This document shows positions 2,516 through 36,078 of a stretch of DNA of 36,078 bases, piece after piece. The notes beneath the pieces are model-generated. The model did not search any database. It saw only the letters and a program-made list of their open reading frames with translations, and had not been told where the DNA came from. A program made the translations under genes and the position numbers. Each line of letters starts with the position of its first letter. The first letter of the stretch is position 1. Source of the DNA: an uncultured Thermoguttaceae bacterium (lineage in GTDB: Bacteria > Planctomycetota > Planctomycetia > Pirellulales > Thermoguttaceae); NCBI GenBank assembly GCA_937951625.1, contig CALFBP010000075.1, positions 1-36,078 of the forward strand. The letters run 5' to 3'.

Positions 2516-4684
2516 ATGAGCCGGGCCAGACGATCGAAAGAGGCCATTTCGACCGCAGCCTTTCTCGCGCTGATTCTATGCACCGCTTGCAGCGCCACGG
2601 CGCAAGGGCCTACGCGAACGCAGATCAGTCAGCCCGTCGCCAACAGCAACCGTGATCCGGCCCAGGAGGTGGAAGCTTTCATCGAGCGGTTGCGGGCCGA
2701 GTCGCACGTCAGGAATCGAAATCTGAGGAAAGGGCAATCCCCCTCGAAAACTTCGGCAGCCCGTGCTGAAGACTGGCTACCGCATCGGCTCGCGGTTGCC
2801 TCGCCCGAGGTGCAAGAGGCGGCATTGGCCGTCCTTGCCGCCCAGGCCCAGCCGCTGGAACGCGACCTTCGCAAAGCCGCTGCGGACTTGGATCAGGGGA
2901 TTCGCGAATTAGCGAGCGCGTGGGAGCTTGTGCGGGCCAAATTGTACAGGCAGGGCGCCTTGCTCGAACGCTATCGCAACGCTGCATCCAGCAGCAAGCT
3001 GTACCTGTGGAGTCTCGACGACCACTGGTTTTGGGTTGCGGTTCTTCTGCCTTGGGCGGCATTGGCCGCGTGCATCGTCCACGCACATCGCCACGCCATA
3101 CGACGGCGATGGGGGATACGCCTGAACCGCGCAGCGCGACGTGGCATTGTCCTGGGGGGGATTGTGTTGATCATGGGCCTGGTAGCTGGGCTGGGATTCC
3201 TCGACCGCCTGACCGACGCCCGGAAGACCGCGAACCTCGGGGGACACTCCCTCGAAGCTGCGACGAACAAGGGATTGGATGCGACTGAGGGGGAGACACA
3301 GAAACTTCCGTCCGGCGTTTTTCCCTCGGAACTTTCCCCAACGGCTTTAGGCGAGGGCGCCGCGAGGCTGAATGAGAAAGACGCTCGACTGCTGCCGCGT
3401 CGCGTGATCGAACTTGGCGACCGGGTGTGGGAAGTTGTGGAACGTTTCGAAGTCCTCGATTTTTTGCCGCGGGGTATTCAAGAGGACCTAGAACACTTGC
3501 AGCGACGGGACGCCGAGCTCCGCCAGGCCGCCGCAAAAGTAGCCCCCCTGAACCGTTGGCGTCGAGGAATCCGCGGTGTGTTTGGTCTGGGTTCGCTCCT
3601 TGGGGTGGCGACGGGGGCATGGTTCTTGCGACTCCAAGTGAAACGCCGCGAGGCCAAGGCAAGCACCACGTGCCCGCTCTGTTTGGGGGTGATACCGGGG
3701 GCCGCAGCCTCGCAAAACGGCCAGCCGGGGGACGCGACCGCGCTGGTCCGTTGTGACAATGCCCTTGATTCGGCAGGCAATATCCGCTGTGGTTTCGTGA
3801 TGCGAGACGCGTATCGCCGCATGCCCAGACTTTGTTTCCCCACGCTCGGCCTTCCCCGCGCCGGAAAGACCCATTGGCTGGCCATGACCTACTGGCAGCT
3901 CAACCGCGGTGCCTACCCGCGCTGGGTGCGTTTCCAGCGGGTCCGACCAGTGGAAATCGCGACCAGCGAGGACCTCGACCGCGTGGTGGAGCAGATTCTC
4001 ATTAGCCGCCTGGGAACATCCGCAACTCAGCTAGCGCGACTGCCTCACCCGGTGATGCTCCAATTTACCGATTGCGATTTGTGGGGTCGGTCTACCGTAC
4101 TGGTCAACCTTTTCGACTTTTCCGGGGAAGTGAGCGCGCGGGTCAACCTGGACGATTATCGGCGGCGTCGGGCCTTGGAGGCCGATGGGTACGCCTTTTT
4201 TCTCGACCCGACCTTGCCCGCCGATCCCCAAGCCAAGGCGCTCGCCAACTTGTGCGAGGACTTGCGTCTGATGAAGGGGTGGGCGAGCCGGGACCCCATT
4301 CCCATCCCGCTGGCCGTGTGCGTGTCGAAGATCGACTTGTTGGTCAGACAGCCGTTCGCCCTGACAGACGGCGACGATGCCGTGGCCCATTTCTACGAAG
4401 CCCTGGCCCGGATCGACCCCACCGGCGAGGCCATGACGTTGGAAGTCCTTCGGGCGAGATCGCGGCTTGTGGCAGACCTCAGCGCGACCATTTGGCCGGG
4501 CTGGGACATCCAACGGACTTTGGACGACGCCTTTCGCGGCCACTGGATGTTCTTTCCGCTGACCCCGGTGGGACTGGATGGGCGAGGCGAAACGGACTTG
4601 AGCCTGCGGACCATCGCCCCGTTCGGACTGCTCGAACCGCTGGCGTGGCTGTTGCACATGAACGGATACCCGGTATTGATGTAA
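2516..4684 (+). CDS. Membrane-anchored GTPase, DO-GTPase2 (double-GTPase) type, with zinc ribbon
   Basis: 722 residues from the ATG at 2516, chosen because GGGGGTGG lies 6 bases upstream and it gives a clean signal sequence (cleavage near ATA-QG); a GTG at 2471 is possible. Residues 30-170 are a charged, helical, probably periplasmic region. Membrane segments lie near 171-190, 210-229 and 352-372, with a second periplasmic loop between the last two. A zinc ribbon follows (CPLC at 386-389, then VRCDN and IRCGF). The C-terminal 290 residues are a P-loop GTPase: G1 GLPRAGKT at 445-452, G3 DFSG at 534-537, G4 SKID at 604-607. This order (ribbon, then GTPase ending in a hydrophobic LLxW segment) matches DO-GTPase2 proteins, which occur next to GAP1 proteins in predicted conflict or stress-signalling loci; a GAP1-like gene is two genes downstream. 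Only 3 bases separate it from the kinase gene, so the two are probably cotranslated. Nucleotide specificity is inferred. Confidence 0.8.
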   Translation: MSRARRSKEAISTAAFLALILCTACSATAQGPTRTQISQPVANSNRDPAQEVEAFIERLRAESHVRNRNLRKGQSPSKTSAARAEDWLPHRLAVASPEVQEAALAVLAAQAQPLERDLRKAAADLDQGIRELASAWELVRAKLYRQGALLERYRNAASSSKLYLWSLDDHWFWVAVLLPWAALAACIVHAHRHAIRRRWGIRLNRAARRGIVLGGIVLIMGLVAGLGFLDRLTDARKTANLGGHSLEAATNKGLDATEGETQKLPSGVFPSELSPTALGEGAARLNEKDARLLPRRVIELGDRVWEVVERFEVLDFLPRGIQEDLEHLQRRDAELRQAAAKVAPLNRWRRGIRGVFGLGSLLGVATGAWFLRLQVKRREAKASTTCPLCLGVIPGAAASQNGQPGDATALVRCDNALDSAGNIRCGFVMRDAYRRMPRLCFPTLGLPRAGKTHWLAMTYWQLNRGAYPRWVRFQRVRPVEIATSEDLDRVVEQILISRLGTSATQLARLPHPVMLQFTDCDLWGRSTVLVNLFDFSGEVSARVNLDDYRRRRALEADGYAFFLDPTLPADPQAKALANLCEDLRLMKGWASRDPIPIPLAVCVSKIDLLVRQPFALTDGDDAVAHFYEALARIDPTGEAMTLEVLRARSRLVADLSATIWPGWDIQRTLDDAFRGHWMFFPLTPVGLDGRGETDLSLRTIAPFGLLEPLAWLLHMNGYPVLM

Positions 4685-4687
4685 TCA

Positions 4688-7066: not shown

Positions 7067-7236
7067 ATACCGTTTTTTCCGGAAGCCGCCCGTCTTCACC
7101 CGGCCCCCTGGGCCTGAATCCAACTCAGGGCAGGGTGGAGGCGAGCTGAGAGCCTTTGACCGAAATCCTTCGATCACAATCAGCCGACGCCAACAGGAGG
7201 CCAAGACCTTAACCGGCTCCTGAAGGGAGAACTGCG

Positions 7237-9831: not shown

Positions 9832-9840
9832 ACCGCGGCG

Positions 9841-11319
9841 ATGAAAACCCTTTGGTTCGTTGCTTTGGCATCCGCCCCCCTGGCGATCTTGACCGCACGG
9901 AACGCGCTGGATTTCGGGGCTGTCGGCGATTCGCTGCCTGGTGATGCCGCCCTGGAAGCCTCGGCCCTAGCTACGCTTGAAAAACAAGCCGCGACGGCCG
10001 CTGCGTTTCGGGAGGAGGTCGACTCGTTGAAGCAGCTCGATCTCCCCTTTGGGGACAGTCTTCCCGTTCTGGACAACCTGCGGCCGAATAGCCCTTTATC
10101 GCCCGTCAAGCGCTCCCTGGCGGCTTGGAATACCGCGTTGGGTATCGTCGCGGCGTTCCTCCGCGTGGCGACGGTCCACGCCGACGACGACCTCGCGCAC
10201 CTCCGGGCTTCGGAGGCACGTTGGGAGAACTTCGCCCAGCAAGTGGAATCGGCGAAGCTGGCAGGAAGCGACGCCATGGCGTGGTTGGCGACGCAACGGC
10301 TCGGGCAAATTCGACGGGAACTCGCTCGCCGCAAAGCGGAAGCCGAGGCGTCGCAGGCTGCCGAGTCGGTAAAAAAGCTCTTCGTCTCGGGCAACTATCA
10401 GGCCTGCTGGACCCAGGCCCAACAGTGGCTCGAGACTCACGCGCCCTGGGCAACCGCCTCCCGCGTCGAGGAAATCAAGGCCCTGGCAGTGCGGGCGGAG
10501 TTCTATGCCGAACACGAGCGGTTGCAGGCCCGTTTGAAGCCGGGGCTTTCGTCCGCCGAACGGGAAGCCGTGTTGGCCGCCTTTGTTGAGCGATTCGGTG
10601 GCGCAGCCTCGCTTGCCGATTCCGAGCGTCTGATCCTCCAGCATAACCGCAAGGCTTTGGAGAAGCTTCGCGCCGAGTCCGCCGCGGCCGCGCAACGGCG
10701 AGCCGCGGACGAACTGCTTCGCGTAAAACTCGCCGATCTTCCGGCGGGCTGGGAAGAACGACTAGCGCTCGCGGCACGGATTCTGGAAGAGCTTCCTTCG
10801 GCCTCAGTGCAAAACGTGCTGTGCGACCGAGTTCGGCAGTGGCTCGAAGAATTCCTCCCGGAAAAACAGGTGGACGAACCTCCCGGGCTTTACGAGGCCC
10901 AGACGAACGGCGGCCGAGTGCTTCGCGGGTATTTCCGCAAGGTTTTGACCCCTGACGGCCTGGTCGGTTACAAGCGGTATGACACCGCCGCCCAACGCGA
11001 CCGTCCCACAGCCGACGTGGGGACATGGCTGGCCAGGGATCTGGCCTTGTTGCCGGGCGCGAGTTTTCCGCGGCGGCTGGTCCAAGTCTACCAGGAGGCC
11101 CGAAAAAAACTCCTCGACGAGCCCTCGCGCCGAGCCTCCTGGGAGGAGTTCGCCACCACGTGCGAGCGTTTACAAGCCGAGTGCGACGCCTACCGCGTTA
11201 AACCGGGCGCAGCGGAGCACGTGCCGAGCTTTCACTCCGAGGCCAAGTTCGCGAGGCGCACGGCGTCGGGACCGGCGTTGGCCCAGCTTCAAGCGATTTG
11301 GGAAACGGCCAGAGATTGA
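9841..11319 (+). CDS. Helical/coiled-coil protein with N-terminal signal or membrane anchor, function unknown
   Basis: 492 residues starting 9 bases after the GAP1-like stop, without a clear ribosome site, so coupled translation is likely. The N-terminus (MKTLWFVALASAPLAILTA) is a signal peptide or uncleaved anchor. The rest is Ala/Glu/Arg/Leu-rich and predicted almost entirely helical, with long coiled-coil-like stretches (about 135-185 and 270-310) and a repeat-like ACWTQAQQWLETH segment at about 195. Near 355-400 lies a short beta-type region (GGRVLRGYFRKV ... VGYKRYD). I do not recognise a family. Its position between the GAP1-like and VWA genes, inside a tight same-strand run, suggests a structural or sensor subunit on the outer face of the membrane, which is inference only. 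Confidence 0.7.
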   Translation: MKTLWFVALASAPLAILTARNALDFGAVGDSLPGDAALEASALATLEKQAATAAAFREEVDSLKQLDLPFGDSLPVLDNLRPNSPLSPVKRSLAAWNTALGIVAAFLRVATVHADDDLAHLRASEARWENFAQQVESAKLAGSDAMAWLATQRLGQIRRELARRKAEAEASQAAESVKKLFVSGNYQACWTQAQQWLETHAPWATASRVEEIKALAVRAEFYAEHERLQARLKPGLSSAEREAVLAAFVERFGGAASLADSERLILQHNRKALEKLRAESAAAAQRRAADELLRVKLADLPAGWEERLALAARILEELPSASVQNVLCDRVRQWLEEFLPEKQVDEPPGLYEAQTNGGRVLRGYFRKVLTPDGLVGYKRYDTAAQRDRPTADVGTWLARDLALLPGASFPRRLVQVYQEARKKLLDEPSRRASWEEFATTCERLQAECDAYRVKPGAAEHVPSFHSEAKFARRTASGPALAQLQAIWETARD

Positions 11320-11352
11320 CTCAGATTGGCTTGCCTCAGCGGAGGATTCGCC

Positions 11353-12219
11353 ATGCCCCATTCGCCGTACTCTCAGGAAATCAGCCGTCAGCATAAAGCG
11401 TGTTTCCTGTTCCTTTTGGATCAGTCGTTCTCGATGGAGGAGCCCTTGGGCGGCTCGGACCAACGCAAGTGCGATGCGCTGGCGACCGCGATCAACGACT
11501 GGCTTCAAAACATGGCGATCCTTGCCAGCGGCGATGAGGGCATCAAGGACTGGTGGGACGTGGGCGTGTTCGGCTATCGCACGGACGAGGCCAGCAACAT
11601 GATCATTGAACCGGCGTTGCTTGGCGAGCTGGCTGGCAAGAGGCTGGCGTCGATCAGCGAGATCGGCAATCACCCCGCGCGGATCGATACCCGCAACCAG
11701 TGGATTCCCTCGGAGGAGGGCGGAGAGATGATCTCCGTGCCGTGCGATGTTCCCATCTGGGTAGATCCGATCGCGCAGGGCGGCACACCGATGTGCAACA
11801 TGCTCTACCTCGCGCGCGACCTGTTGGCGGACTGGATCCGCCAGCACCCCGACAGTTTCCCGCCCATCGTGGTCCACATCACCGATGGCGAATCGCAGGA
11901 CGGCGACCCAGTCCCCTATGCAGAGGCCATTCGCAAGCTGTCGACGAGCGATGGCCAGGTGCTGATGTTCAATTGCCATCTTTCCAGCACAGCGGCCGCG
12001 CCGTTTTTGTTCCCTGCGAAGCCGGACGGCTTGCCCGACCGAATGGCACGGACGTTGTTCGAAATGTCCAGCCCCCTGCCCGAGCATTGTCTCCGTTACG
12101 CCGCCGAGGAGGGCTTTGAGCTTCAGCCTGGCGCGCGGGGCATGGCCTTCAACGCCGATATGGTGTGCTTTCTCAAGTTTCTGGACTGGGGTACTCGACG
12201 CGCGGCGAGACTTCGTTGA
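11353..12219 (+). CDS. terY: TerY-like von Willebrand factor A (VWA) domain protein
   Basis: 288 residues from the ATG at 11353, which has GCGGAGGA 7 bases upstream; an in-frame TTG at 11326 is less likely. The whole protein is a VWA fold with an intact metal-ion-dependent adhesion site: DQSFS at 23-27 (DxSxS), T145 in GGTPM and D178 in ITDGES. The placement of the DxSxS motif near the N-terminus, the GGTPMC helix and the closing RGMAFNADM ... LDWGTR segment match the TerY group of VWA proteins. Known biology: TerY-type VWA proteins occur in a triad with a PP2C phosphatase and a protein kinase; here the PP2C gene follows directly and the kinase lies three genes upstream. No signal peptide, so cytoplasmic. 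It likely scaffolds or binds a metal-dependent partner; the ligand is unknown. The symbol reflects family resemblance, not proven orthology. Confidence 0.85.
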   Translation: MPHSPYSQEISRQHKACFLFLLDQSFSMEEPLGGSDQRKCDALATAINDWLQNMAILASGDEGIKDWWDVGVFGYRTDEASNMIIEPALLGELAGKRLASISEIGNHPARIDTRNQWIPSEEGGEMISVPCDVPIWVDPIAQGGTPMCNMLYLARDLLADWIRQHPDSFPPIVVHITDGESQDGDPVPYAEAIRKLSTSDGQVLMFNCHLSSTAAAPFLFPAKPDGLPDRMARTLFEMSSPLPEHCLRYAAEEGFELQPGARGMAFNADMVCFLKFLDWGTRRAARLR

Positions 12220-12263
12220 GCGGGCTTTCGACGCGTGGTTCCACGGACGCAGCTTGCGAATGT

Positions 12264-13157
12264 ATGGAAGACTTGGGCCCTCCGAAACGTTTGCGGTTGC
12301 AGTGGCGGGTGTTGACCGTCGCCAAGGACGCCGACTACCCGGAGGAGAACCAGGACGCCGTTTACGTGGACGGCGATGGCGGCGCCGCAGCGATCGCCGA
12401 CGGGGTCAGTTCGACGCTCTTCGCCCGCCGCTGGGCCACGATCCTGGTCGAGGCCGCCGCGCGTCATTGTCCCGACCCCGATGACCCAAGGGCCATGGCC
12501 CACTGGCTTGCGGAACGCCGCGCGGCGTGGAGACGTCAGATCGATGTCTCGAACCTGGTCTGGTTCCAGAGCGTAAAACTCCACGAGGGGGCCTTTTCCA
12601 CACTGCTGGTCATCCGGCTCCTCCCGCCGGAGTCCCGCTCGGCGCTCGAAGAGCCCGAGTGGCGTCTGCACGGGGTAAGCATCGGCGATAGCTGCCTATT
12701 CCACCTCCGCCGTGGTCGCTTGTTGCGCACCTTTCCCATCCAAAGCTCCGCGGAATTCGACCAATGCCCCCTGGTCCTTGGTAGCGTGGACCTGCATCGC
12801 GACGAGTACCTCGCGTTTCAGCGGCTCGACGAACCCTGCCAGGAGGGCGACTTGATCGTGCTTTGTACCGATGCCCTGGCCCACTGGGCGTTGCGCCGGG
12901 AGGAAGCTGGCATCAACACGGATTGGGAAGAATACTGGGACATAGACCCTACGGCGTGGAAGGCTCACATCCTTGCCCTGCGGTCGCAACGGGAAATCCG
13001 TCGCGACGACACGACCTTGGCGCTGTTGCGGATCGTCGGCGATGAGGGAGGGCAGTCTCGGGAGGAACGGCGGGAACCAGAACAAGCTGGGCAAGCGGAT
13101 GGACGCGAGGAGAGGAATGAAGGCAACGAGCGGGAGGATGAAGTGGAGCACAAGTGA
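12264..13157 (+). CDS. PP2C-family protein phosphatase of a TerY-P triad
   Basis: 297 residues from the ATG at 12264. Alternative starts exist: a TTG at 12216 overlapping the VWA stop and a GTG at 12165 inside the VWA gene. The ATG was chosen because the domain starts right after it (LQWRVLTVAK). PP2C motifs are all present: ENQDA (28-32), IADGVSS (44-50), SIGDSCLF (140-147), LCTDALA (200-206) and RRDDTTLALL (246-255), giving the Asp residues that hold the two metal ions. It should remove phosphate from Ser/Thr, presumably reversing the action of the kinase of the same cluster. After the domain comes a very charged tail of about 40 residues rich in Glu, Arg and Gly, unlike the rest of the protein. 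No signal peptide. Its stop overlaps the start of the next gene by one base (TGATG), showing translational coupling. Confidence 0.9.
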   Translation: MEDLGPPKRLRLQWRVLTVAKDADYPEENQDAVYVDGDGGAAAIADGVSSTLFARRWATILVEAAARHCPDPDDPRAMAHWLAERRAAWRRQIDVSNLVWFQSVKLHEGAFSTLLVIRLLPPESRSALEEPEWRLHGVSIGDSCLFHLRRGRLLRTFPIQSSAEFDQCPLVLGSVDLHRDEYLAFQRLDEPCQEGDLIVLCTDALAHWALRREEAGINTDWEEYWDIDPTAWKAHILALRSQREIRRDDTTLALLRIVGDEGGQSREERREPEQAGQADGREERNEGNEREDEVEHK

Positions 13158-14425
13158 TGCAAGGCCCATTTGAGAACAACTTTGGCTCTGCCTCCCAATG
13201 CGACCCCCGTGGGACGCCCCAAGCGGATCGGCGCGACGCTTGGCGTTGGGCCTTGGACGTCGCCGCGGCCGTGTCGCTGGGGATCGCCCTGGGAGCGATC
13301 TGGGCGTTGGATTCGCCACGATCCAGGCCGTACGCCGGCGGGCCTCCGACCGACGTCTTGGAGCCGCCGGACCGCGATCGATCGAGTGTCGCGGCCCGCA
13401 CTTTGCGACTGGCCGTCACCCCGCCCGAATACGACGACATGGGCAAGCTTCTGGCCTCGCTTGGCAGCGGCTACCAACCCACCGAAATCGTCATGAACGA
13501 CTTACTGGACGCCGAGCGGCTGGCGTCTTTTGACGTGGTGTTCGCCACGTGCGGGGGCGTACCCCAGTCATGGCTAGGCGAGCGGATCGGCAGCGCGAAG
13601 CGAAGCGGCGCGGGATCCTTTCGCGCTAACCCGACGATCGCCGTCCAGCTCCGCGAGGCCTTGCGGAGTTTTGTTGGCCGCGGCCGGACCTTGTACGCCT
13701 CGGACTGGCAGTTCCAACTCCTTGAGATTGCTTTTCCCGAGATGATCGACCACGCGAAGCGGGCCAAAGGGGCCGTGCAAACCGTGGTCGCCGAGGTGAT
13801 CGACCCGGGGTTGGCCCGCCGCCTTGGACCGACGATCGAACTGCGCTTTGACCAGCCCGCCTGGTTTCCCGCCGCCTTCAAGGAGCCCGAGGCCATCCCC
13901 TATCTTCGCGGCAAGTTCAAGACCATGGAGGGGCGGGAAATGACCGGGTCGCTATTGGTCCGGTTCCCGTTCGAGAAGGGAAACGTGATCTTCACTTCGT
14001 TCCACAATGAACGGCAAAACACGCAGATCGAGCAGGAGCTGCTGCGTTACCTGGTTTTCGCCACGGTCACGGCGCAAGAGGAATCAGAGGTGCGCCGCAC
14101 CATGATTCAGGGAGGTTTCTGGCCGAAAGAACGCAGTCTGCTGAGCGCCTCCGCCGGTAGTCAGCCGGTCGTCCAGGAATACGTGATGCAACGTTCGGGA
14201 CCACTCCAGTTCGTGCTTGGTTTCGAGCCGCGCGGCGCCAGACTCCGGCTGAGAGTTGTTGGTCCCAACGGCGCCAAGTACCAACAGGAGGGCGTTCAAA
14301 CCTTTCGCATCGAGGTCCCGAACGCCGCCCCCGGCACGTGGCGCTGTACGATCACGCCAGTGGAAATTCCGTTTCCTAACTATCCCTTCACGTTGACGAT
14401 CGGGGAGAAAACGAACGGATCGTGA
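13157..14425 (+). CDS. Single-pass membrane protein with class-I-amidotransferase/ThuA-like outer domain
   Basis: 422 residues; the ATG overlaps the PP2C stop by one base. One hydrophobic helix at about 31-51 follows a polar, Arg-containing head, so the N-terminus is cytoplasmic and the bulk is outside. Residues 75-310 alternate beta and helix: LRLAVTPPEYDDMGKLL, FDVVFATCGGVP, ALRSFVGRGRTLYASDW, and later GNVIFTSFHNE, as in glutamine-amidotransferase-like or ThuA-like domains that sense or bind small molecules. A Cys (in ATCGG) sits where such folds often have a nucleophile elbow, but the motif is not canonical. Residues 330-420 look like a beta-sandwich (FVLGFEPRGARLRLRVVGPNG, then GTWRCTITP), similar to pre-peptidase-type domains. 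Last gene of the plus-strand run; it may be the outer sensor of the system (inference). Confidence 0.7.
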   Translation: MQGPFENNFGSASQCDPRGTPQADRRDAWRWALDVAAAVSLGIALGAIWALDSPRSRPYAGGPPTDVLEPPDRDRSSVAARTLRLAVTPPEYDDMGKLLASLGSGYQPTEIVMNDLLDAERLASFDVVFATCGGVPQSWLGERIGSAKRSGAGSFRANPTIAVQLREALRSFVGRGRTLYASDWQFQLLEIAFPEMIDHAKRAKGAVQTVVAEVIDPGLARRLGPTIELRFDQPAWFPAAFKEPEAIPYLRGKFKTMEGREMTGSLLVRFPFEKGNVIFTSFHNERQNTQIEQELLRYLVFATVTAQEESEVRRTMIQGGFWPKERSLLSASAGSQPVVQEYVMQRSGPLQFVLGFEPRGARLRLRVVGPNGAKYQQEGVQTFRIEVPNAAPGTWRCTITPVEIPFPNYPFTLTIGEKTNGS

Positions 14426-14440
14426 GGGACCATGCTTCCG

Positions 14441-16693
14441 TCACGGCGTCCAAGGAAGCGAAGGTTCCCGGCAAGGAGCCTGGGAATCGGTTTGCTCATC
14501 CTGGTTGGCCATCAAGTAGGAACGAAAACTGGTGAGGACTTCCTTGGCGCGATCCAGGAGCTGATCGCGGCGACGCTCGCGGCTCTTTTCAGGCGCGATG
14601 GTCACGCGGATCCGCGTGCGAGCCCAAACCGTCGGCTGGGCTGAATTCGCGGAGGCTTGCCCGCCGCATTCCTCATCGAGCTTTACGTCGACGCGGAACA
14701 CGGCCGGCCGATCGCCCCAGCGGCGCGAACGTTTGGGCTTTTCGATTTGAACCAGCATGGCCACGTGGTTCTCCCCGACGTGAAGCACCTTGGCGCGGTG
14801 ATCGGCGATGAACCCGCGGAGCTTCTCGACGGCCACCCAAAGAGGCACGGGGGTGACCAATCGCTGCTCGACGAAGGCGGAAACGCCGGCGGGAAGATTT
14901 GCGGAGTCCGCGCCGTCCAGATCGGCGCCCCCGCCCAATTGCACCACCCGGTCGCGTCCCTGCTGTTTAGCCATCAACAATGCCCGATCCGCGCGGCGGA
15001 GCATCGTTTCGGGGGTATCGCCGGGCTGGACTTCGGTCACGCCGAAGCTCGCCGTCACCCTTTGGCCACTCAGGCAGCCGTGCTGCATTTGCGCGAGCGT
15101 CTTGCGTGCCTGTTCCGCCAAGCGCACGGCCTGGGCGTTGTCGCAGTCGGCACAAAGGACGACGAACTCCTCGCCGCCATAACGGGCCACAAGGTCACCG
15201 GCCCGGCAAACGCCTTTAAGCACGTTGGCCAGGGCCTGGATCACCTCGTCGCCCGCCTGATGCCCGTACGTGTCGTTGACCCGCTTGAATCGGTCTAGAT
15301 CACACATGATCAGGCTGCACGCCACGTGGTGTTCCTTGTGTGCGTGCAGGAACATTTCGAGCACCCGATCGAATTCGGCGCGGTTGGCGACCTTGGTGAG
15401 GGGATCCTTTGTCGCCCTTTCGTACAGGCTTTGGCAGCGTTGTTCCAACGAGGTTTCGCCCGAAGCGTCGTGCATCAGGAGCACGGCGCCGAGAACGCCG
15501 CCGTCGGCGGCAGTTACCGGAATGGCGTGCACATCGACCGAGATTGAGCGCCCACCGCGTCCGGAAATCGTCAGCCGTCGAAGCGACTGAACCTGGGACT
15601 GAAGGGCGCAGCGGACAGGGCAGTCCTGTTCGGCCAGCCACTCGCCTTTCTCATTCTGCATTTGGAGCAGCGACGGCGACCAGAGACGCTCCATCATGCT
15701 GACGGCCGCGATCCCGGTCAGACGCTCAGCGCCGCGATTCCATTCGACCACGCGCATGCCGGCGTCGATAAACATCACGGCGTCGTGCATGTTCTCCAGG
15801 AGTTTCCTTTCAAACCATCGGGCGGTTTCCGTGGTCGCTCGGGGCTTTTCCGTAGCGAGCAGCTCCCAGTAGGAGTTCGCGGTCTCCGCATCCAGACCGC
15901 GGAGCCAACGTTGCGCCACTTTGTCCCGCCACGGCTTTTGGTCGCCAGCGCGGAACTCCGCGAACTGCTCCACCAAGTTGGGATCAAACTGGCTCCCCGC
16001 CGAAGCGAACAGCTCCTGCATTACCCGCTCATGCGACATCGCCCGCCGGTACACTTGATCGGTGGTCATCGAATCGAAGGCGTTGACGATGGCGATCATC
16101 CGTGCGCCGGCGGGAATCTCACGGCCGCTCAACCGATAGCCGCCTTTGGATCCATCGAACCAAGCCCCGACATGTTCCACAATCTCAAGGACTTTCGCTT
16201 CAGCGCAGGCATGGCGGAGGATCTCGGCGGCCAGGCGCCGTCCCTGTTCGACGATCAGCAGCTCGTCGCGGGTCAAAGGGCCCGGCTTCAACAAGACGCT
16301 GTCGGGAACGCCCACCATGCCCAGATCGTGCAACAGCGCGGCCACCTCGATGGCGTCGAGGTCGCCCGGCGTCAGTCCCAATTTTAAACCCCATGCCGAG
16401 CAAGTGAGCGCTACGCGGAGCGAGTGGGCGGCCACCGCGGCGCTGCGACACCGCAGCGCTACGAAGAGACTGCTAGCCATGCCCAGTCGCACGATGATGA
16501 GCTGGTTGTCCACCCACGCCGTTTCCGATCGCCCCGCCTCTGGCGATGACGCGGTTTCCCGCCCCACCCCCTTGCTGTCCAACTCTGCCAAGAGGTTGTG
16601 GAGTTTCTGGATGCCGTGCTCCAGCGGCGCGTCGACCGGCGTTTGGGCCTTCCCATTGCCGACGTCGGTTTGGATCAGGCTGAGGTCGCTCAT
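14441..16693 (-). CDS. Diguanylate cyclase with HD-GYP-like and PAS domains
   Basis: 750 residues from the ATG at 16693; a TTG at 16714 with AGGAAGG upstream is a real alternative. Domains: HD-GYP-like at about 80-240, with HD at 122-123 (ALLHDLG) but degenerate later (GGYRLSG instead of GYPxGL, and no HHE), then PAS at about 293-410 (NMHDAVMFIDAG), then GGDEF at about 425-590. The GGDEF motif is an intact GGEEF (506-510), and a product-inhibition site RAGD lies five residues before it. It should therefore make cyclic di-GMP from two GTP; breakdown by the HD-GYP-like part is doubtful. The last 150 residues (VRVxIAPEKSRERRRDQ-like segment) form an extra C-terminal region I cannot assign. No signal peptide or membrane segments. 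It lies 15 bases from the convergent end of the plus-strand cluster. Confidence 0.9.
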   Translation of the reverse strand: MSDLSLIQTDVGNGKAQTPVDAPLEHGIQKLHNLLAELDSKGVGRETASSPEAGRSETAWVDNQLIIVRLGMASSLFVALRCRSAAVAAHSLRVALTCSAWGLKLGLTPGDLDAIEVAALLHDLGMVGVPDSVLLKPGPLTRDELLIVEQGRRLAAEILRHACAEAKVLEIVEHVGAWFDGSKGGYRLSGREIPAGARMIAIVNAFDSMTTDQVYRRAMSHERVMQELFASAGSQFDPNLVEQFAEFRAGDQKPWRDKVAQRWLRGLDAETANSYWELLATEKPRATTETARWFERKLLENMHDAVMFIDAGMRVVEWNRGAERLTGIAAVSMMERLWSPSLLQMQNEKGEWLAEQDCPVRCALQSQVQSLRRLTISGRGGRSISVDVHAIPVTAADGGVLGAVLLMHDASGETSLEQRCQSLYERATKDPLTKVANRAEFDRVLEMFLHAHKEHHVACSLIMCDLDRFKRVNDTYGHQAGDEVIQALANVLKGVCRAGDLVARYGGEEFVVLCADCDNAQAVRLAEQARKTLAQMQHGCLSGQRVTASFGVTEVQPGDTPETMLRRADRALLMAKQQGRDRVVQLGGGADLDGADSANLPAGVSAFVEQRLVTPVPLWVAVEKLRGFIADHRAKVLHVGENHVAMLVQIEKPKRSRRWGDRPAVFRVDVKLDEECGGQASANSAQPTVWARTRIRVTIAPEKSRERRRDQLLDRAKEVLTSFRSYLMANQDEQTDSQAPCREPSLPWTP

Positions 16694-17036
16694 GAACAAG
16701 TTGCCCACCGACAAGATCTAGGGCCTTCCTGCTCTCCAGAAGTCCAGGAGAGGAGATGGCCGGTTAGGACAAGTTCCCAGGCCGCACGTGGCATTCGCCT
16801 CGTTGGGCCATGCGGACGTGAGTAGCCTATATCCAACCCTACGTTACGATTCGTTCCGATTCAAAATCATGGAGGGAAGGGAAGCGTTGCCAAAAGGCAA
16901 CAAGGCGGCGACTCCCCGGCACAACGCCGCGGGACGGCAAGCCTCCTGCCGTGCCGAAAAAAAAGGAGCGATTTGCGATCGGAGGCAACAGGCTCGCTAA
17001 GCCCGTGAGGCCCCATAGTCCCCGCGGCGGAAGGTT
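16694..17036. other. Intergenic region between two minus-strand genes
   Basis: About 340 bases between the end of the acyl-AMP ligase gene and the start of the cyclase gene. It should hold the cyclase promoter and possibly the ligase terminator. A perfect hairpin GTTGCC-AAAA-GGCAAC lies at 16886-16901 but has no T-run on the minus strand side. A run of eight A residues near 16958-16967 reads as T on the minus strand, without a convincing stem before it. No gene seen. Confidence 0.45.
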
Positions 17037-25907: not shown

Positions 25908-26431
25908 TTAGCAGAGTTGTCAACGAGTTTTGAATTTTTTTGTTGGGAGAAATCGGGCTTGAGACTGGCTTCGTCGCTGCGCTAAAGGGAAACCGGGGCC
26001 ATGCTTTGCCGGAATTCTCACCCGGGAATTGAGGCAGGCAAACAGGGATGCATCTTTGACGCCTTGCGGAAACGAAACGCCTCGGCCAGATATGCCGAAC
26101 CGGAACAACCAGGAGGCCTGACAACACTCAACCAACGTGCTTTGGGAACGTCTGCTGCCAACGCTTAAGCGTATAACGGGAAATGTCTTATGTGCAGGGA
26201 AAAAGTATCCGCGTACGCTGGAATCCACGATTCGACGGACGACCAGGCGTTATTCCGGCCCAGGCGAAGTCTCCATATTTTTACCGCGCTACTTGACCAT
26301 GGCCGCGTCGGTTCTGGCTTTGGGGGCGGCTTCCGTGCGACATCCACTAGCGGGGGCGGGCGAGTAGTTGAATAAGCGATGGACGTGTTCGATCGGCTTC
26401 GCGTGCCGCCTGTTTCGCATTCGCGCGAAGC

Positions 26432-26445
26432 GTTCTTGCAAGAAC
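26432..26445. promoter_or_regulatory. 14-base perfect palindrome, possible operator
   Basis: GTTCTTGCAAGAAC is a perfect 7+7 palindrome. It lies about 70 bases before the candidate -35 box and 230 bases before the next gene start. A dimeric regulator could bind it; no regulator gene is nearby. Confidence 0.35.
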
Positions 26446-26514
26446 ACAACCCCTTGGAGGGAGATACCCCCCCAAGAAAATCTGTTGAAGATTGGTTAGA
26501 CGTTGGGTTTTTTG

Positions 26515-26542
26515 TTGACAGGAAAAACTCCATTTGTAAGCT
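26515..26542 (+). promoter_or_regulatory. Candidate sigma70-type promoter
   Basis: A perfect -35 box TTGACA (26515-26520) is followed after 16 bases by TAAGCT (26537-26542), a poor match to TATAAT. It would give a leader of about 125 bases before the exported Gly/Ala-rich protein gene. Confidence 0.35.
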
Positions 26543-26675
26543 AGAAGGACGTGATAGCGATGTTGGCGTTTATCCTGCCGCTTCGCAAAAGCCCTTCGTA
26601 GCGAGGGGCGAAGATTTCTGGCTTCCAGTGAGTCGTCAGCTTCTGATGAACATTGCACAAAAGGGAGTTCACTTC

Positions 26676-27410
26676 ATGAAAACGCGAAAGCAAAATTGGG
26701 TCGAGGGCAGCCTCGGGGTGGTCAGCCGGTGGGGCGCTGTGGCCATTGTGGCGGCGTTCGTGTGCTTGGGTCAAGTCACCAAGGCAAGAGCTGCTGACAC
26801 TGCGATGGGTGGGCAAAAGTGGTATGAGTCGGTCCGGCTCCGCGTCGACGGGAACCTCGCTGGCCGTGTGGTGAAGTTCACGCCTTCTGGCGAGGTTGTT
26901 CCTGCCCAAGCGAAGGTTTTCTTCGTCCAGAATGGCCAAGTCGTGGGCAATGTGCAAACGGGCGAGAACGGGGCGTTTCAGGCCATGAAACTCTCGCCCG
27001 GTGTTTATTCAGTCATGGCGGCCGGAGCGGACGGTATCGCGGTGCTGGCCGTAAGAGTGCTTCCCTACGCGTCCCCCGAAGTCAAGCGGCAAGCCTCGGG
27101 GGCCTCCGAGTCGTCGGGCGGCTTGCGGGCGCGAACCGTGGCTCTGGCAGAGACGCCGGCGGATGAGAACACTTTGGAGATTCCCTTGATACCCCGGTCC
27201 GACCTGGATGCCCTCCAGGCTGTCTTGGGCGAACAAGTGCCGGGGATGGCTGGCGTAGCCCCTGGTGCAGCGACCACGCCTGGTGCTGCCGGCCCTGGCG
27301 GGGCTGGGGCAGCCGGCGGTGGCCTCGGGGCCTTGGCGGGCCTGGCGGGCCTGGCGGGCCTGGCAGGAACCGCCGGTGGCGGTGTGCCGGCAAGTCCAAA
27401 GGCTCCGTAG
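26676..27410 (+). CDS. Small exported protein with carboxypeptidase-regulatory-like domain and Gly/Ala-rich tail
   Basis: 244 residues from the ATG at 26676, chosen because AAGGGAG lies 8 bases upstream and a signal peptide follows (RWGAVAIVAAFVCLGQ, cleavage near ARAAD). Residues about 55-135 form a short beta-sandwich of the carboxypeptidase regulatory or transthyretin-like kind: LAGRVVKFTPSGEVVPAQAK, VVGNVQTGENGAFQAMKLSP, GVYSVMAAG. Such domains bind sugars or proteins in cell-surface assemblies. The last 60 residues are low-complexity Gly/Ala/Pro, including three GLA repeats from a 9-base tandem repeat. It stands just before polysaccharide genes on the same strand, so it may be a surface protein of the same locus; no enzyme motif seen. 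Confidence 0.75.
   Translation: MKTRKQNWVEGSLGVVSRWGAVAIVAAFVCLGQVTKARAADTAMGGQKWYESVRLRVDGNLAGRVVKFTPSGEVVPAQAKVFFVQNGQVVGNVQTGENGAFQAMKLSPGVYSVMAAGADGIAVLAVRVLPYASPEVKRQASGASESSGGLRARTVALAETPADENTLEIPLIPRSDLDALQAVLGEQVPGMAGVAPGAATTPGAAGPGGAGAAGGGLGALAGLAGLAGLAGTAGGGVPASPKAP
27338..27364 (+). repeat. Three perfect 9-base tandem repeats
   Basis: The unit GGGCCTGGC occurs three times in a row, preceded by a degenerate copy, and encodes Gly-Leu-Ala repeats in the tail of the exported protein. Repeat number may vary between strains by slippage. Confidence 0.8.
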
Positions 27411-30956: not shown

Positions 30957-33401
30957 ATGATGGAACCGAGAATGGGGCAGCGCGTGGATTGGGCAGTCCC
31001 GGAAGGTCCGGAAGACGCAGTGGGCGGTGGGGTCAATCCGCTGGCCGTCCTTTGGCGGCACAAGTGGATCATCGTCTTGTTCACGGCGGTGAGCTGTGGG
31101 CTGGGGTACCTTTATTACCTCCAGCAGCCGCCGGTGTATCAGTCCTCCGGGCAGGTGTTGATCGTTCGCAACGAGGCGAGGCTGCCAGTCCAGGGGGTCG
31201 ATTCCCAGCGATCCAGCGACGACTCGCTCTCCATGCACTCGGTTTTACTCAAGAGCCCGACGGTCATCAGCCGTGCTGTGGAGAAACATGAGCTGGGAAA
31301 ACTCCCGTCACTACGAGAGGCTGCCGATCCGACCGGCGTAATCATTGGCTCTCTGACTACGAGTACGCCCACGCCGACCGGAGGTAGTTCGAACATCGTC
31401 GGCTTGACCTTCAAGGGTAGCGATCCAGATGATTGCACGAAAGTGCTGACTGCGATCTTCGACAGTTATAAAGAGTTTTTGGGCGACGCCTATCAAGACC
31501 GAACCAAGGAAACGGCGGAGTTGATCTCCCAGGCCAAGGACGTGCTGCTCAAACAGCTCGGCGAAAAGGAAGAGGCCTATCGCAAGTTTCGCCAGGAGGC
31601 GCCACTTCTGTGGAAGGGTACGGAGGGCTCCAATCTCCACGAGGACCGCATGGCGAAGATCGAAGCGGCTCGGGCCGATGTCATTGTCCAGGTTTCTCAA
31701 ATCAAATCCCGGATTGCTGCGCTCGAGAACGCCATCGCCAGAGGTGGCAATCGGGAGGCCATTGCCCTTTTGATCGGCAATTTGGCGGCCATCAACGATT
31801 CGACAAACGCTGCCGGTTCTGCGACGCGCCTTACGCCACGCAACGCCTTCGAAGACAACCTCTTCAACGTCTTCCTTGAAGAGCAAATGCTCTTGGAGGA
31901 GTTTGGCCCAGACCATCCCAAAGTCAAAGCCGCCCGCAAGAGAATGAACCTCATGCGCACCCACATGGCGAGCTTCGCCCCGGGGTCCGAGGGATCGGGG
32001 TCCGAGGACTTCATCAAAATCTATTTGGAATCCTTGCGTCAAGAAATGAAGCTGCACGAGGAGCGATTGCAGGGGCTGAATACCTTGTTCGAGGCGGAGC
32101 GCAATTCAGCCAAGGCTCTCGCTACTTACCAAGTCCAAGACGAAACCTTTCGCAATGAGATCAGCCGCACTCAACAGCTTTTTGGTGTCGTTGTGAAACG
32201 GTTGGACGAAATCAACTTGATTAAAGACTATGCCGGCATCAACATGCAGGTCATCTCGCCGCCAGGTTATGGTGTGCAGGTCGCGCCCAAGTTGCCCAAC
32301 ATCATGGCGATCGCGGCCCTGTGCGGCATGTTGGCAGGTTTCGGACTGGGCTACTGCATCGAATTGATGGATCGCCGCTTCCGCAGCCCGGAGGAGGTCC
32401 GATCCTATCTCGGCTTGCCCATCTTCGGCCACATCCCCACGATCGGGCTGCGCAAGGGCAAGCGAATCGTCCCCGAGGCCGCGGCGAATTCGCCCTTGGC
32501 TCCCACCCTCTGCGTGGCACACCAACCCAAGGGACGCCAAGCCGAGGCCTACCGCGCGGTGCGGACCGCGCTGTATTTCAGCACCCATTCGGAGGGCCAT
32601 AAGGTCATTCAAATCACCAGCCCCAGCCCTGGCGACGGTAAGAGCACGACGGCCGCGAATTTGGCCCTGTCGATCGCCGATTCTGGGAAGCGGGTGGTCC
32701 TGGTCGACGCCGATTTCCGCCGCCCCCGAATCCATAAATTCCTCGGTCTGGAAAACCACGTCGGTTTGAGCAATTTGATCAACGGCGAGGCCGAGTTGCC
32801 CGACGCCGTTCAGGCCACGGCCGCTCCCAACCTCTGGACGATCACGACCGGCCCCCGGCCCTCGAATCCCGCGGAATTGTTAACCTCAAGGCAATTCGAG
32901 GAACTTATTGCCGTGTTGCGCGACCAGTACGACTATGTACTGATCGATAGTCCGCCGGTACTGGCTGTGACGGATCCTTCGGTGATTGCTCCCCGGGTCG
33001 ATGCCGTGCTTCTAGTACTTCGCTTGACCAAGCACGCCCGGTCTTCTTCGCGGCAAGCCACCGAGACCCTCACCTCCTTGGGAGCGAAAATCCTCGGCGT
33101 CATCGTCAATGCGGTCGGCCGTGGGGGCGGCTACGGCTACGGTTATGGTTATAGCAGCTACGGATATCGGGCTTACGGGTACGCCGGATCGAAGTACGGC
33201 TACGGCCGCTATGGCTACGGCTCGGGTTACGGGTATGGTTATGGCTACGGCCACGGCTACGGCTACGGCGAAAGCGACAAGGTCTACTACGACGAGAAGA
33301 GCGAACAGCCCGCCGGCGGCAACGGCGCCGCGGCCAACGGCAAGTCGGGCAGCAAGTCGTCGGGCAAGGCCGACGCCACCAAATCGCAGCAAGCCACCTA
33401 A
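30957..33401 (+). CDS. Wzc-like polysaccharide co-polymerase and tyrosine autokinase
   Basis: 814 residues. N-terminal Wzz-type chain-length domain: membrane helix at 36-55, a long periplasmic coiled-coil region (about 60-440) and a second helix at about 447-468. The cytoplasmic BY-kinase domain follows: Walker A PGDGKSTT (558-565), Walker A' VVLVDADFRRP (580-590) and Walker B YVLIDSPP (660-667). After about residue 720 the tail is a run of Gly-Tyr and Tyr-Gly repeats, with about 25 tyrosines in 60 residues, then YYDE and a Gly/Ser/Lys-rich end. In Wzc proteins a C-terminal Tyr cluster is autophosphorylated and controls polymer length and export; here the cluster is far larger than usual. It acts with the neighbouring polymerase-like and exporter genes. 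BY-kinase assignment is secure. Confidence 0.95.
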   Translation: MMEPRMGQRVDWAVPEGPEDAVGGGVNPLAVLWRHKWIIVLFTAVSCGLGYLYYLQQPPVYQSSGQVLIVRNEARLPVQGVDSQRSSDDSLSMHSVLLKSPTVISRAVEKHELGKLPSLREAADPTGVIIGSLTTSTPTPTGGSSNIVGLTFKGSDPDDCTKVLTAIFDSYKEFLGDAYQDRTKETAELISQAKDVLLKQLGEKEEAYRKFRQEAPLLWKGTEGSNLHEDRMAKIEAARADVIVQVSQIKSRIAALENAIARGGNREAIALLIGNLAAINDSTNAAGSATRLTPRNAFEDNLFNVFLEEQMLLEEFGPDHPKVKAARKRMNLMRTHMASFAPGSEGSGSEDFIKIYLESLRQEMKLHEERLQGLNTLFEAERNSAKALATYQVQDETFRNEISRTQQLFGVVVKRLDEINLIKDYAGINMQVISPPGYGVQVAPKLPNIMAIAALCGMLAGFGLGYCIELMDRRFRSPEEVRSYLGLPIFGHIPTIGLRKGKRIVPEAAANSPLAPTLCVAHQPKGRQAEAYRAVRTALYFSTHSEGHKVIQITSPSPGDGKSTTAANLALSIADSGKRVVLVDADFRRPRIHKFLGLENHVGLSNLINGEAELPDAVQATAAPNLWTITTGPRPSNPAELLTSRQFEELIAVLRDQYDYVLIDSPPVLAVTDPSVIAPRVDAVLLVLRLTKHARSSSRQATETLTSLGAKILGVIVNAVGRGGGYGYGYGYSSYGYRAYGYAGSKYGYGRYGYGSGYGYGYGYGHGYGYGESDKVYYDEKSEQPAGGNGAAANGKSGSKSSGKADATKSQQAT
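33124..33270 (+). repeat. Low-complexity Gly-Tyr codon repeat in the kinase tail
   Basis: Imperfect tandem GGCTAC/GGTTAT hexamers encode the Gly-Tyr tail of the tyrosine kinase. Synonymous codon mixing (TAC/TAT, GGC/GGT) shows the repeat is not a fresh expansion and is kept at protein level. Confidence 0.85.
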
Positions 33402-33453: not shown

Positions 33454-35124
33454 ATGATTCCTGCAATCCTTGCCCTGTTCGCCATCGCCTGCGGCGTGAG
33501 TTTCGCGCTGTCGTTCGCCATGCGCCGCCTCGCTGCCCGCATCGGATTGGTCGATCGGCCCGACAATTTCCGCAAACTGCACCAGCGCCCGATCCCGCTG
33601 GGCGGCGGACTGGCGATATTTGTGGCATCGGTGTTGGTCGTTCTCGCGGCATGTGCCTTCCCCACTCCGCTTCAGGACGAGCTCCTGGCCCAGGCCGTGG
33701 AACTCTGGCCGCTTCTGGTGGCAGGTCTATTGATCGTGGTCGTGGGGCTCGTGGACGATTGGGTCGGCCTCCGCGGACGCCAAAAGTTCCTCGGTCAAGT
33801 GTTGGCCGCCTCGATCCTCGTGGCCGGTGGGTTTTCCATCCACCGCATCGTGCTCTTCGGCTACCCGATCGACATGGGCGTCATGGGCTTCGTTTTCGCA
33901 CTGTTCTGGCTCCTCGGCGCGATCAACTCAGTGAATCTGTTAGACGGCATGGATGGCTTCGCCACGACTTTGGGAATCATCCTCAGCGTGGCCACGGCCC
34001 TGATCGCCGCGGTCTCTGAACACCTGGATGTGGCCATTCTGGCCATGATCTTTGCCGGGAGTCTCACTGGGTTTCTTTGGTGGAACCTGCCGCCAGCTAA
34101 AATGTTCCTAGGCGACGCGGGCAGCATGTTGATCGGACTGGTGGTGGGCACTTTGGCGATTGCCGGATCGGTCAAAGGCCCAGGCACTGTGCTCTTGGCC
34201 GCCCCTCTGGCAGTTTGGACGATCCCGGTCCTGGACTCGGCCGCCGCCATCCTCCGACGTCGATTGACGGGCCGCAGCGTCTACTCCACCGATCGCAGTC
34301 ACCTCCATCACCGCCTTTTGGATCGGCTGGGAAGTAATCCAAAAGTCCTTGCCGTGGTCGCGGTGCTATGTCTTTTGACAGCCGGCGGGGGCTTGATCAG
34401 TCAGTTCTACCGCAACGACCTTGTCGCTTTGATTACCTCCGGCGCGGTCGTTTCCATCGTGGTAACCACGGGCCTGTTCGGTCGGGCCGAGTGCTTCTTG
34501 CTGCTCCATCACTTGCGCAGCTTCGTTCGATCCGTGGTCAGGCCGATCGCGCAGAGAAGCCCGCAGCAGGCCACGTATCCGGCCGCTCATCAGTCGGTGG
34601 TCCGGCTTCAAGGCTCGCGGCCTTGGGAGATGCTTTGGGAAACCATGGTCGAGTCGGCGGAAAAACTCGGCCTATGCCATATCCGCTTGGATGTCAACAT
34701 TCCCGCCCTGCGCGAAGGTTTCCATGCCTCCTGGCGACGCAAAGTCCAACTTGTCGACGAGGAACGATGCTGGTCGCTCGTCGCACCCCTGTTGAGTAAC
34801 GATAACCGGCTGATTGGCCGGATCACGGTCGAAGGCGAAGTAGAGGAGGAACACGAAGGCAATACCGCGGGCCAAAACAGCAATTCTGTGACGCTCGTGG
34901 AACGGCTCGATCAAGTCACGGAAATGCTCGACGGCGTCCATGGCTTGCTGGACGCCGTGGGCGAGCTTACCTTCACCGCTGTCCGACCCAAGAGAAAATT
35001 CAAGAAGCACTCCAAAAAGTCCAGAAAAGTTTCGTCCCTGTCTCATCTGAAAAGCGATTCCTCGCTCGGCCGCCTGGGGGTGAACGGAAACGCCGCCGAA
35101 CGCGAAAATAGAAACGGAAAGTAA
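33454..35124 (+). CDS. WecA/TagO-type polyprenyl-phosphate sugar-1-phosphate transferase with cytoplasmic extension
   Basis: 556 residues. The first 360 residues are an integral membrane enzyme of about ten helices with all family motifs: VDDW (100-103, the DD pair for Mg2+), NSVNLLDGMDG (158-168), MFLGDAGS (217-224) and the cytoplasmic HLHHR (283-287). It should transfer a sugar-1-phosphate from a UDP-sugar to undecaprenyl phosphate, the first step of lipid-linked glycan assembly at the inner membrane. Typical WecA proteins stop near residue 360; this one continues for about 190 residues as a soluble domain (PWEMLWETMVESAEKLGLCH ..., a beta-rich segment with RITVEGEV) and ends in a Lys-rich tail. 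The extension resembles the one found in planctomycete and related undecaprenyl transferases, role unknown. It lies 52 bases after the tyrosine kinase gene and 3 bases before the exporter permease. Confidence 0.93.
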   Translation: MIPAILALFAIACGVSFALSFAMRRLAARIGLVDRPDNFRKLHQRPIPLGGGLAIFVASVLVVLAACAFPTPLQDELLAQAVELWPLLVAGLLIVVVGLVDDWVGLRGRQKFLGQVLAASILVAGGFSIHRIVLFGYPIDMGVMGFVFALFWLLGAINSVNLLDGMDGFATTLGIILSVATALIAAVSEHLDVAILAMIFAGSLTGFLWWNLPPAKMFLGDAGSMLIGLVVGTLAIAGSVKGPGTVLLAAPLAVWTIPVLDSAAAILRRRLTGRSVYSTDRSHLHHRLLDRLGSNPKVLAVVAVLCLLTAGGGLISQFYRNDLVALITSGAVVSIVVTTGLFGRAECFLLLHHLRSFVRSVVRPIAQRSPQQATYPAAHQSVVRLQGSRPWEMLWETMVESAEKLGLCHIRLDVNIPALREGFHASWRRKVQLVDEERCWSLVAPLLSNDNRLIGRITVEGEVEEEHEGNTAGQNSNSVTLVERLDQVTEMLDGVHGLLDAVGELTFTAVRPKRKFKKHSKKSRKVSSLSHLKSDSSLGRLGVNGNAAERENRNGK

Positions 35125-35127
35125 CCC

Positions 35128-36078
35128 ATGGCTCTCGACGATCTTGCGGCCGTCGCCGACGACGCCGCGGAATTCGAAATCCAGCCTCCCCAGCCCCAAG
35201 CTTCTGCCTCCACCGAGCCTTCGACCAACGGCGAAGTGCCCGTGCTGGTCATCGTTCCCACGCATGGTTGGAGGGCCATCGACCTCCGCGAGGTCTGGCG
35301 CTACCGCGGCTTGCTATTCGCTCTGACTGCCCGCGAAATCAAAATCCGTTATAAGCAAACGATCCTCGGCGCAGCTTGGGCGTTGATTCAGCCCCTGATG
35401 ACCACCGGCATCTTCGCCGCCTTGTTCGCCATCCTCATGGGCCGGGCGAACATGCCCACCGTGCCGGGCATCCCCTACGTCGTCTCCACCTTCTGCGCCA
35501 TGTTGCCCTGGCAGCTCTTCGCCCATTCGCTCTCGCAGTCGGGCCAAAGCCTGATCGCGCACCAGGCCATGATTACCAAGGTCTATTTCCCCCGCCTGAT
35601 CTTGCCGTTTTCCTCGGTCTTGGCGGCCCTGGTGGATTTCGGCATCGCCCTTGTTGCCTTACTGGTGATGATGCTTTGGTATGGCGTGACGCCCTCTTGG
35701 GCCGCGGTCACGTTGCCAGTCTTCATGGTCCTCGCCGTGGTGGCCTCGCTGGCCGGTGGGCTGTTGCTGGCCGCGCTGAGCGCCATCTACCGTGATTTCC
35801 GCTACGTCATCCCTTTCATCGTCCAGTTCGGCATGTTCCTCAGCCCGGTGGTCTATTCCACGAGCTCCTTAGAAAGCAAACTGCCCGATTGGGCCATGGT
35901 TCTCTACGGCCTGAACCCCATGGTGGGCGTGATCGAGGGCTTCCGCTGGGCCTTGCTCGGCATCGCCAGGCCGCCCGACCTGATGTTCCTTGTCTCCATC
36001 GTGATGACGTTCCTCCTCCTCATCGGCTCGATGTACTACTTCCGCCGCATGGAACGCACCTTCGCCGACGTGATATGA
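35128..36078 (+). CDS. ABC-2 permease of a polysaccharide/O-antigen exporter (Wzm/TagG type)
   Basis: 316 residues, complete; its stop is the last codon of the window. After a polar, Pro/Ala-rich cytoplasmic head of about 55 residues comes the family signature REIKIRYKQTILGAAWALIQPL, then six hydrophobic helices, with the conserved SAIYRDFRYVIPF loop and the LNPMVGVIEGFRWALLG motif near the end. Such permeases pair with a Wzt/TagH ATPase to move lipid-linked polysaccharide across the inner membrane. The ATPase gene is expected immediately downstream, outside the window. Only 3 bases separate it from the WecA-like gene, so the two are surely cotranscribed. Coexistence of an ABC exporter with Wzc- and polymerase-like proteins is noted as a finding. 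Confidence 0.93.
   Translation: MALDDLAAVADDAAEFEIQPPQPQASASTEPSTNGEVPVLVIVPTHGWRAIDLREVWRYRGLLFALTAREIKIRYKQTILGAAWALIQPLMTTGIFAALFAILMGRANMPTVPGIPYVVSTFCAMLPWQLFAHSLSQSGQSLIAHQAMITKVYFPRLILPFSSVLAALVDFGIALVALLVMMLWYGVTPSWAAVTLPVFMVLAVVASLAGGLLLAALSAIYRDFRYVIPFIVQFGMFLSPVVYSTSSLESKLPDWAMVLYGLNPMVGVIEGFRWALLGIARPPDLMFLVSIVMTFLLLIGSMYYFRRMERTFADVI

Follow-up and report, generated by a model that had tools for sequence, protein, structure and literature searches.

A Wzc-type tyrosine kinase with a lengthened glycine-tyrosine tail in an uncultured Thermoguttaceae bacterium

Genes and features of the locus

The window—the whole stretch of DNA analysed, 36,078 bp in length—is the complete contig G000:C75. 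Positions 30957–33401 of the forward strand form an open frame of 814 amino acids, which is preceded by two genes and followed by two more on the same strand:

26379–27410, +: protein with a weak carboxypeptidase-regulatory-like match (PF13620, 23 bits, below the cut-off of 32.3) and a Gly/Leu/Ala-rich end; homologues in loci L204, L205 and L206
27555–30524, +: Wzy/O-antigen-ligase-type membrane protein with TPR repeats (PF04932 (Wzy_C), 70.5 bits; TPR families)
30957–33401, +: Wzc-type polysaccharide co-polymerase/BY-kinase, 814 aa (open frame; TIGR01007; best Foldseek match E. coli Wzc, 7nhr)
33454–35124, +: glycosyl transferase family 4 (GT4) enzyme, WecA-like (PF00953, 128 bits)
35128–36078, +: ABC-2 type export permease (PF01061, 53.1 bits); the contig ends at its stop codon

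The order of the first three genes is kept in L204, L205 and L206, and GT4 adjoins Wzc in L205, L036 and L038; for the ABC-2 permease, no homologue was found in the eight related loci searched. WecA is the name that we take to apply to the GT4 enzyme. Two details of the operon's ends may be added: its first gene closes with a GLAGLAGLAG repeat, as does the relative at L204:5311–6048, and the ABC-2 permease lies directly after the Wzy/Wzc/GT4 set, where the end of the contig hides any partner ATPase.

Within the part of the operon that the contig covers, neither a phosphatase gene nor a Wza gene was recognised; matches lie on other contigs. The genome carries (i) one CpsB_CapC match, on contig C9 and about 3 kb from a kinase paralogue (G000:C9:93711–94409), (ii) three LMWPc matches, and (iii) four Poly_export matches on three contigs. 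A CpsB_CapC gene immediately follows Wzc in L036 and L038. The paralogue's own locus (L209; G000:C9:84000–100000) consists of a Wzy_C/TPR gene, a Wzc with 12 tail tyrosines, a Poly_export/SLBB (Wza-like) gene and, about 3 kb on, the CpsB_CapC gene.

Identity of the kinase

Three lines of evidence bear on the identity of the 814-residue protein. Firstly, it scores 177.7 bits against the NCBIfam model TIGR01007 ("polysaccharide biosynthesis tyrosine autokinase"; cut-off 108.05), and its Pfam matches are Wzz and AAA_31. Secondly, it carries the domain and motifs listed here, with their retention among 184 aligned rows of the survey described below:

31041–31286, +: Wzz domain (residues 29–110), N-terminal part of the membrane/periplasmic region (PF02706, 41.4 bits)
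32544–32564, +: E530-x2-R533-x2-R536 motif (E in 183/184 rows, R533 in 172/184, R536 in 180/184)
32619–32645, +: Walker A, residues 555–563, catalytic lysine K562 (K in 183/184 rows)
32703–32726, +: Walker A' (DxDxR type), residues 583–590; D584, D586 and R588 are retained in the window kinase
32937–32957, +: Walker B, residues 661–667 (D664 in 184/184 rows)

We take the E530-x2-R533-x2-R536 stretch, in both name and role, to be the oligomerisation motif. Walker A, A' and B all agree with the BY-kinase consensus given in PMC5260027, and the C-terminal tyrosine cluster of a BY-kinase is present, with 20 tyrosines. The Wzz domain is fused to the kinase together with two long helices in the AlphaFold2 model (36–56 and 446–471), which would fit two membrane helices.

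Thirdly, the fold. The AlphaFold2 monomer model, built from 31 sequences, has a mean pLDDT of 75.2 and a pTM of 0.49; the kinase domain is confident, and residues 723–814 are without structure. The best solved Foldseek matches are chains of E. coli Wzc (best E 1.3e-30); CapAB, BceF and Etk are further matches, and the kinase fold itself aligns to 4jmp with a TM-score of 0.96 over the target at 35% identity (3la6 and 6z0p match too). By the family, motif and fold features tested, the window protein is a Wzc-type BY-kinase; the sequence-only reading, which had called it a Wzc-type tyrosine autokinase with a tyrosine tail, is borne out. Like the E. coli K30 Wzc (PDB 7nhr and mutants), it joins a Wzz-type membrane part to a BY-kinase with Walker motifs.

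Composition of the tail

The tail (residues 719–814) begins with a seven-residue linker after N718, beyond which three segments can be distinguished:

33132–33269, +: Gly-Tyr track, Y726–G771, with 18 Tyr, 3 Lys/Arg and no Asp/Glu (residue counts; pLDDT about 30–41)
33270–33296, +: acidic patch ESDKVYYDE (residues 772–780) with the terminal tyrosine pair Y777/Y778 (terminal-pair survey; SYYD in E. coli K30 Wzc)
33297–33398, +: Tyr-free extension, K781–T814, with 5 Lys/Arg and 2 Asp/Glu (residue counts)

The tyrosines number 20 (residues 726, 728, 730, 732, 735, 737, 740, 742, 747, 749, 752, 754, 758, 760, 762, 764, 768, 770, 777 and 778), fewer than the roughly 25 first estimated, while the Gly-Tyr repeat and the YYDE said to follow it are both present in the frame. 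YYDE is not the C-terminus of the protein, a placement ruled out by the 34 Tyr-free residues K781–T814 that come after it.

Twenty tyrosines in 96 residues have a binomial probability of about 1e-13 at the tyrosine frequency of the protein body. The tail contains 14 GY dipeptides, against a mean of 5.8 and a maximum of 13 in 20,000 within-tail shuffles, by which a chance origin of the Gly-Tyr run is rejected. The tail as a whole is predicted by the model to be disordered.

How do these features compare with known tails? The K30 Wzc shares a Tyr-rich C-terminus in which a YY pair is followed by an acid (SYYD at 716–719). It differs in having seven tail tyrosines and no long Gly-Tyr track, the window kinase having 20 (about three times as many); its 7YE construct has seven tyrosines mutated, at 705, 706, 708, 713, 715, 717 and 718 (PMC8285477). 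A Tyr-Gly repeat tail as such is already known: the BY-kinase CpsD of S. pneumoniae is reported to have one, the (YGX)4 domain. CpsD is unlike the window protein in that the kinase is split from its membrane partner CpsC, three tyrosines are phosphorylated, and the repeat unit has three residues. For Gly-Tyr tails in planctomycete BY-kinases no description was found in the open-licence literature searched, which is weak evidence of novelty.

Tail length among relatives

Tail length was surveyed across 188 loci, which are high-scoring matches and not sampled at random, with paralogues of a single genome among them; three were contributed by a scan of a named-contig collection. Tails were counted for 183 of them, after removal of four weak ParA/MinD-like matches from the window's own genome (L003–L006) and of L080, whose tail is cut by a contig end. 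The survey leaves out the lower-scoring rows of the kinase searches and, from the better rows, G074:C311 and G008:C196 (in both, the tail runs up to a contig edge), G089:C735 and G043:C810. The labels "own family" and "order/class" were assigned to surveyed tails by locus number.

The 183 tails have a median of 9 tyrosines (range 2–32), and their cores are 34% Tyr and 33% Gly. At least 20 tyrosines occur in 33 of the 183, the window included (more than 20 in 27). These long tails are found in 32 of the 90 surveyed from the window's own taxonomic family, the window again included, and in none of the 45 order/class tails and none of the 45 other phylum tails; the 33rd is L038, from a named contig that stood outside the comparison of families. 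A long tail unique to the window genome is rejected by these counts. The adjective "extreme", applied to the tail from the sequence alone, holds against the seven tyrosines of E. coli K30 Wzc and the 10–20 residues quoted for the BY-kinase tyrosine cluster (PMC5260027), but not against the kinase's own family. Absence of the tail from relatives had been named beforehand as grounds for refutation; in fact, 179 of the 183 surveyed kinases have at least four tail tyrosines.

Many of the longest tails belong to genera coded g33 and g34, and these differ from the window's in having a HRFYNEFA-like stretch ahead of the track. In a 49-row tree, the window kinase is grouped with eight kinases having 7–12 tyrosines (SH-aLRT 91, below the 95 mark); against these shorter tails, that of the window kinase seems to have been lengthened locally. 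The closest relative by full-length identity, L007 (48%), has 10 tail tyrosines. A FastTree of 183 rows implies at least four changes between fewer than 20 and at least 20 tyrosines, and contains no well-supported set that includes the window; track length differs several-fold among related kinases. The window protein belongs to a known kind of kinase and has a lengthened tail, of a sort seen repeatedly in its family.

At the other end of the range, four of the 183 kinases have two or three tail tyrosines (L012, L013, L159 and L180). Two of these, L012 and L013 (G012:C207 and G011:C97), are same-family Wzc-type kinases with two tyrosines each, as if the cluster had been lost; since they keep only two, the family can evidently do without a long tail.

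A kinase core with a Gly-Tyr tail is shared with the window by surveyed kinases of the same family, including the paralogue on C9 (L002, 12 Tyr). The C9 group is unlike the window kinase in ending with RR[V/A]A instead of a tyrosine pair. Exactly this ending, placed after the tyrosine track and a variable linker, is seen in 37 of the 183 surveyed BY-kinases (among them L002, L030, L086, L112 and L132). RR[V/A]A is a conserved C-terminal extremity beyond the tyrosine cluster, with no known role.

A conserved terminal pair

The window kinase and its 45 closest neighbours in the kinase tree make up a set of 46, of which 31 have the last tail tyrosine in a YY or YF pair, where shuffling predicts 7.4; the other 137 tails show no such excess (24, with 25.5 expected). 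A hand-chosen subset of 39 of these 46, which omits L014, L015, L022, L050, L057, L083 and L089, gives the pair in 29 with about 5.2–5.7 expected, and in this 39-row version 25 of the 34 pairs found have an acid within four residues after them. Tails that lack a Gly-Tyr track can have the pair too (e.g., L137, L149 and L150). What near relatives conserve is the terminal YY pair, the length of the track is variable, and the excess of pairs is confined to the window's neighbourhood in the tree. By cryo-EM of the K30 Wzc, Y717 sits in the active site of the neighbouring subunit, and Y718 is described in PMC8285477 as not conserved and of no functional significance; the pattern seen here, in which the first tyrosine is kept and the second may be Phe, fits that description. 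VYYDE may accordingly be the docking end of the tail, with the track forming a variable length behind it.

Proposed role of the tail

We put at roughly 0.7 the probability that the window protein is the Wzc-type BY-kinase of an exopolysaccharide operon and that its tail is an enlarged, autophosphorylated tyrosine cluster controlling the Wzc octamer. Tail tyrosines would be phosphorylated in trans, and the growing negative charge would weaken the ring until it came apart. A phosphatase would then reset the tail, and the cycle would gate the Wzy-type polymerase whose gene lies alongside. Because the Gly-Tyr track would supply many interchangeable substrate tyrosines as well as slack, the octamer should withstand a larger number of phosphorylations than that of E. 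coli, for which four are described. Autophosphorylation, the octamer, this order of events and an effect on polymer length are all features that we infer for the window kinase. To judge from their domain matches, phosphatases encoded elsewhere in the genome could perform the resetting step. The graded phospho-switch suggested in the sequence-only reading is, in these terms, plausible.

For E. coli Wzc, a ratchet has been proposed in which tyrosine i occupies the active site and tyrosine i-2 a pocket (the YxY pattern), phosphorylation proceeds from C to N, and the octamer falls apart after the fourth phosphate; the pocket glutamate E675 is proposed to reject phosphotyrosine, making the ratchet one-way (PMC11986026). 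The window kinase agrees with this scheme in its spacing: 11 of its 20 tail tyrosines have a tyrosine at i-2, and nine do not. Across 179 tails, shared ancestry included, two tyrosines lie 2, 4, 6 or 8 residues apart 1.30, 1.58, 1.41 and 1.51 times as often as expected, respectively, and spacings of 1, 3, 5 and 7 are depleted to 0.34–0.67. A universal even-register rule is rejected; some tails use three-residue units (L118).

The pocket is different. Glutamate occupies the position in the K30, K-12, BceF and S. aureus CapB chains aligned, whereas the window kinase has no acidic residue there in a gapless sequence alignment, E675 falling opposite Ser697 (nt 33045–33047). Among the surveyed rows, position 697 is Glu in 5/184 and Asp in 30/184, and position 695 is Arg in 151/184. 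A median of 25 tyrosines was obtained for 29 rows with Asp at 697, the long-tailed kinases being mostly from two related genera. Because E675 aligns with Ser697 and Glu is rare in the survey, it would not be safe to transfer the E. coli ratchet unchanged to the window kinase.

These observations make a serious rival, on present alignments, of a reading in which any tail tyrosine may be phosphorylated, in no fixed C-to-N order, and the stability of the octamer depends on how much charge the tail carries in total, not on where it sits. The missing glutamate and the prevalence of Arg at 695 speak for it, as do the nine tyrosines that have no tyrosine two residues before them. On the other hand, the remaining 11 follow YxY, even spacings are enriched over the 179 tails, near the window the terminal pair has been conserved, as would be expected were one end the most important, and the pocket may hold another acid that is invisible to sequence alignment. 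We regard such unordered phosphorylation as a real possibility, but one we lean against.

A bolder form of the octamer-control reading makes the track a multi-step counter, in which every added tyrosine puts one more phosphorylation step between the docking of the terminal pair and the octamer's release. This we think unlikely. If it were true, the natural number of tyrosines (2–32) would tune the duration and precision of polymerase engagement, and hence polysaccharide chain length. As a matter of arithmetic rather than measurement, n equal sequential steps give a relative spread in lifetime of about 1/sqrt(n), or about 0.5 when there are four steps and 0.22 when there are 20. Since the pocket glutamate is missing, phosphotyrosines might also linger close to the pocket, so that the track could be read without ejection of the tail.

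The extra track could instead merely lengthen a tether, use being confined to the terminal pair and a small number of proximal tyrosines. No single tail tyrosine is essential in E. coli Wzc (PMC8285477), and the several-fold differences in track length among related kinases would also suit a passive spacer. Such a spacer, however, need not stay at about one-third tyrosine, as the surveyed cores do (Tyr 34%, Gly 33%) while the synonymous codons along the tracks are scrambled; we consider it improbable.

The second idea of the sequence-only reading, a condensate or self-assembling segment that changes with phosphorylation, fits the predicted disorder and the Tyr/Gly-rich composition with a few Lys/Arg. 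It draws on those two properties, no description of it was found in the open-licence literature, and the kinase family already explains the presence of the tyrosines; we judge it very unlikely.

Finally, the DNA of the window tail is itself repeat-like (a 6-base unit, 13.0 copies, 72% matches). Fresh slippage would leave adjacent codons alike. In tails with at least eight tyrosines, neighbouring identical Tyr codons number 987 (1010 expected) and neighbouring identical Gly codons 649 (688 expected); recent DNA slippage is rejected by this lack of excess. The motif (GGN TAY)4 gives 78 matches in 33 of 119 family genomes, compared with nine in seven for a reversed-pattern control. The 78 matches represent 38 genes, 34 of which are BY-kinase genes (30 were checked as loci, giving 26 BY-kinases and four others; the other eight, the window among them, lie at listed kinase places). 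A neutral, functionless low-complexity expansion by repeat slippage would account for the repeat-like DNA and the labile length among relatives, but is scarcely credible given the codon counts and the concentration of Gly-Tyr repeats in BY-kinase genes.

Three features make this group of kinases of interest: the natural length series, the terminal pair conserved near the window, and the missing pocket glutamate. They bear on how Wzc phosphorylation is converted into polysaccharide chain length: relatives whose tails carry between 2 and 32 tyrosines, behind a common catalytic core, form a natural series in which tyrosine number could be set against octamer lifetime. With the glutamate absent here and rare in the surveyed relatives, the generality of the glutamate-based, one-way ratchet of E. 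coli also becomes testable.

Other observations

Gly-Tyr repeats are also found in four non-kinase proteins of the family (L219, L224, L231 and L242). In the window genome, the shorter motif (GGN TAY)3 occurs at three places: the window tail, the paralogue on C9, and a non-kinase frame on C73 (L208; G000:C73:30864), which contains a GYGYPGYGYP run.

Elsewhere in the window, positions 1178–14425 hold a series of genes, all on one strand, whose matches are to FHA, protein kinase, GAP1-N2/GAP1-M and PP2C, with a further DO-GTPase2 match below cut-off; the cluster is of a signalling or conflict type. It is followed on the reverse strand, at 14441–16714, by a gene for a 757-residue HD + PAS + GGDEF protein, likely a cyclic-di-GMP protein.
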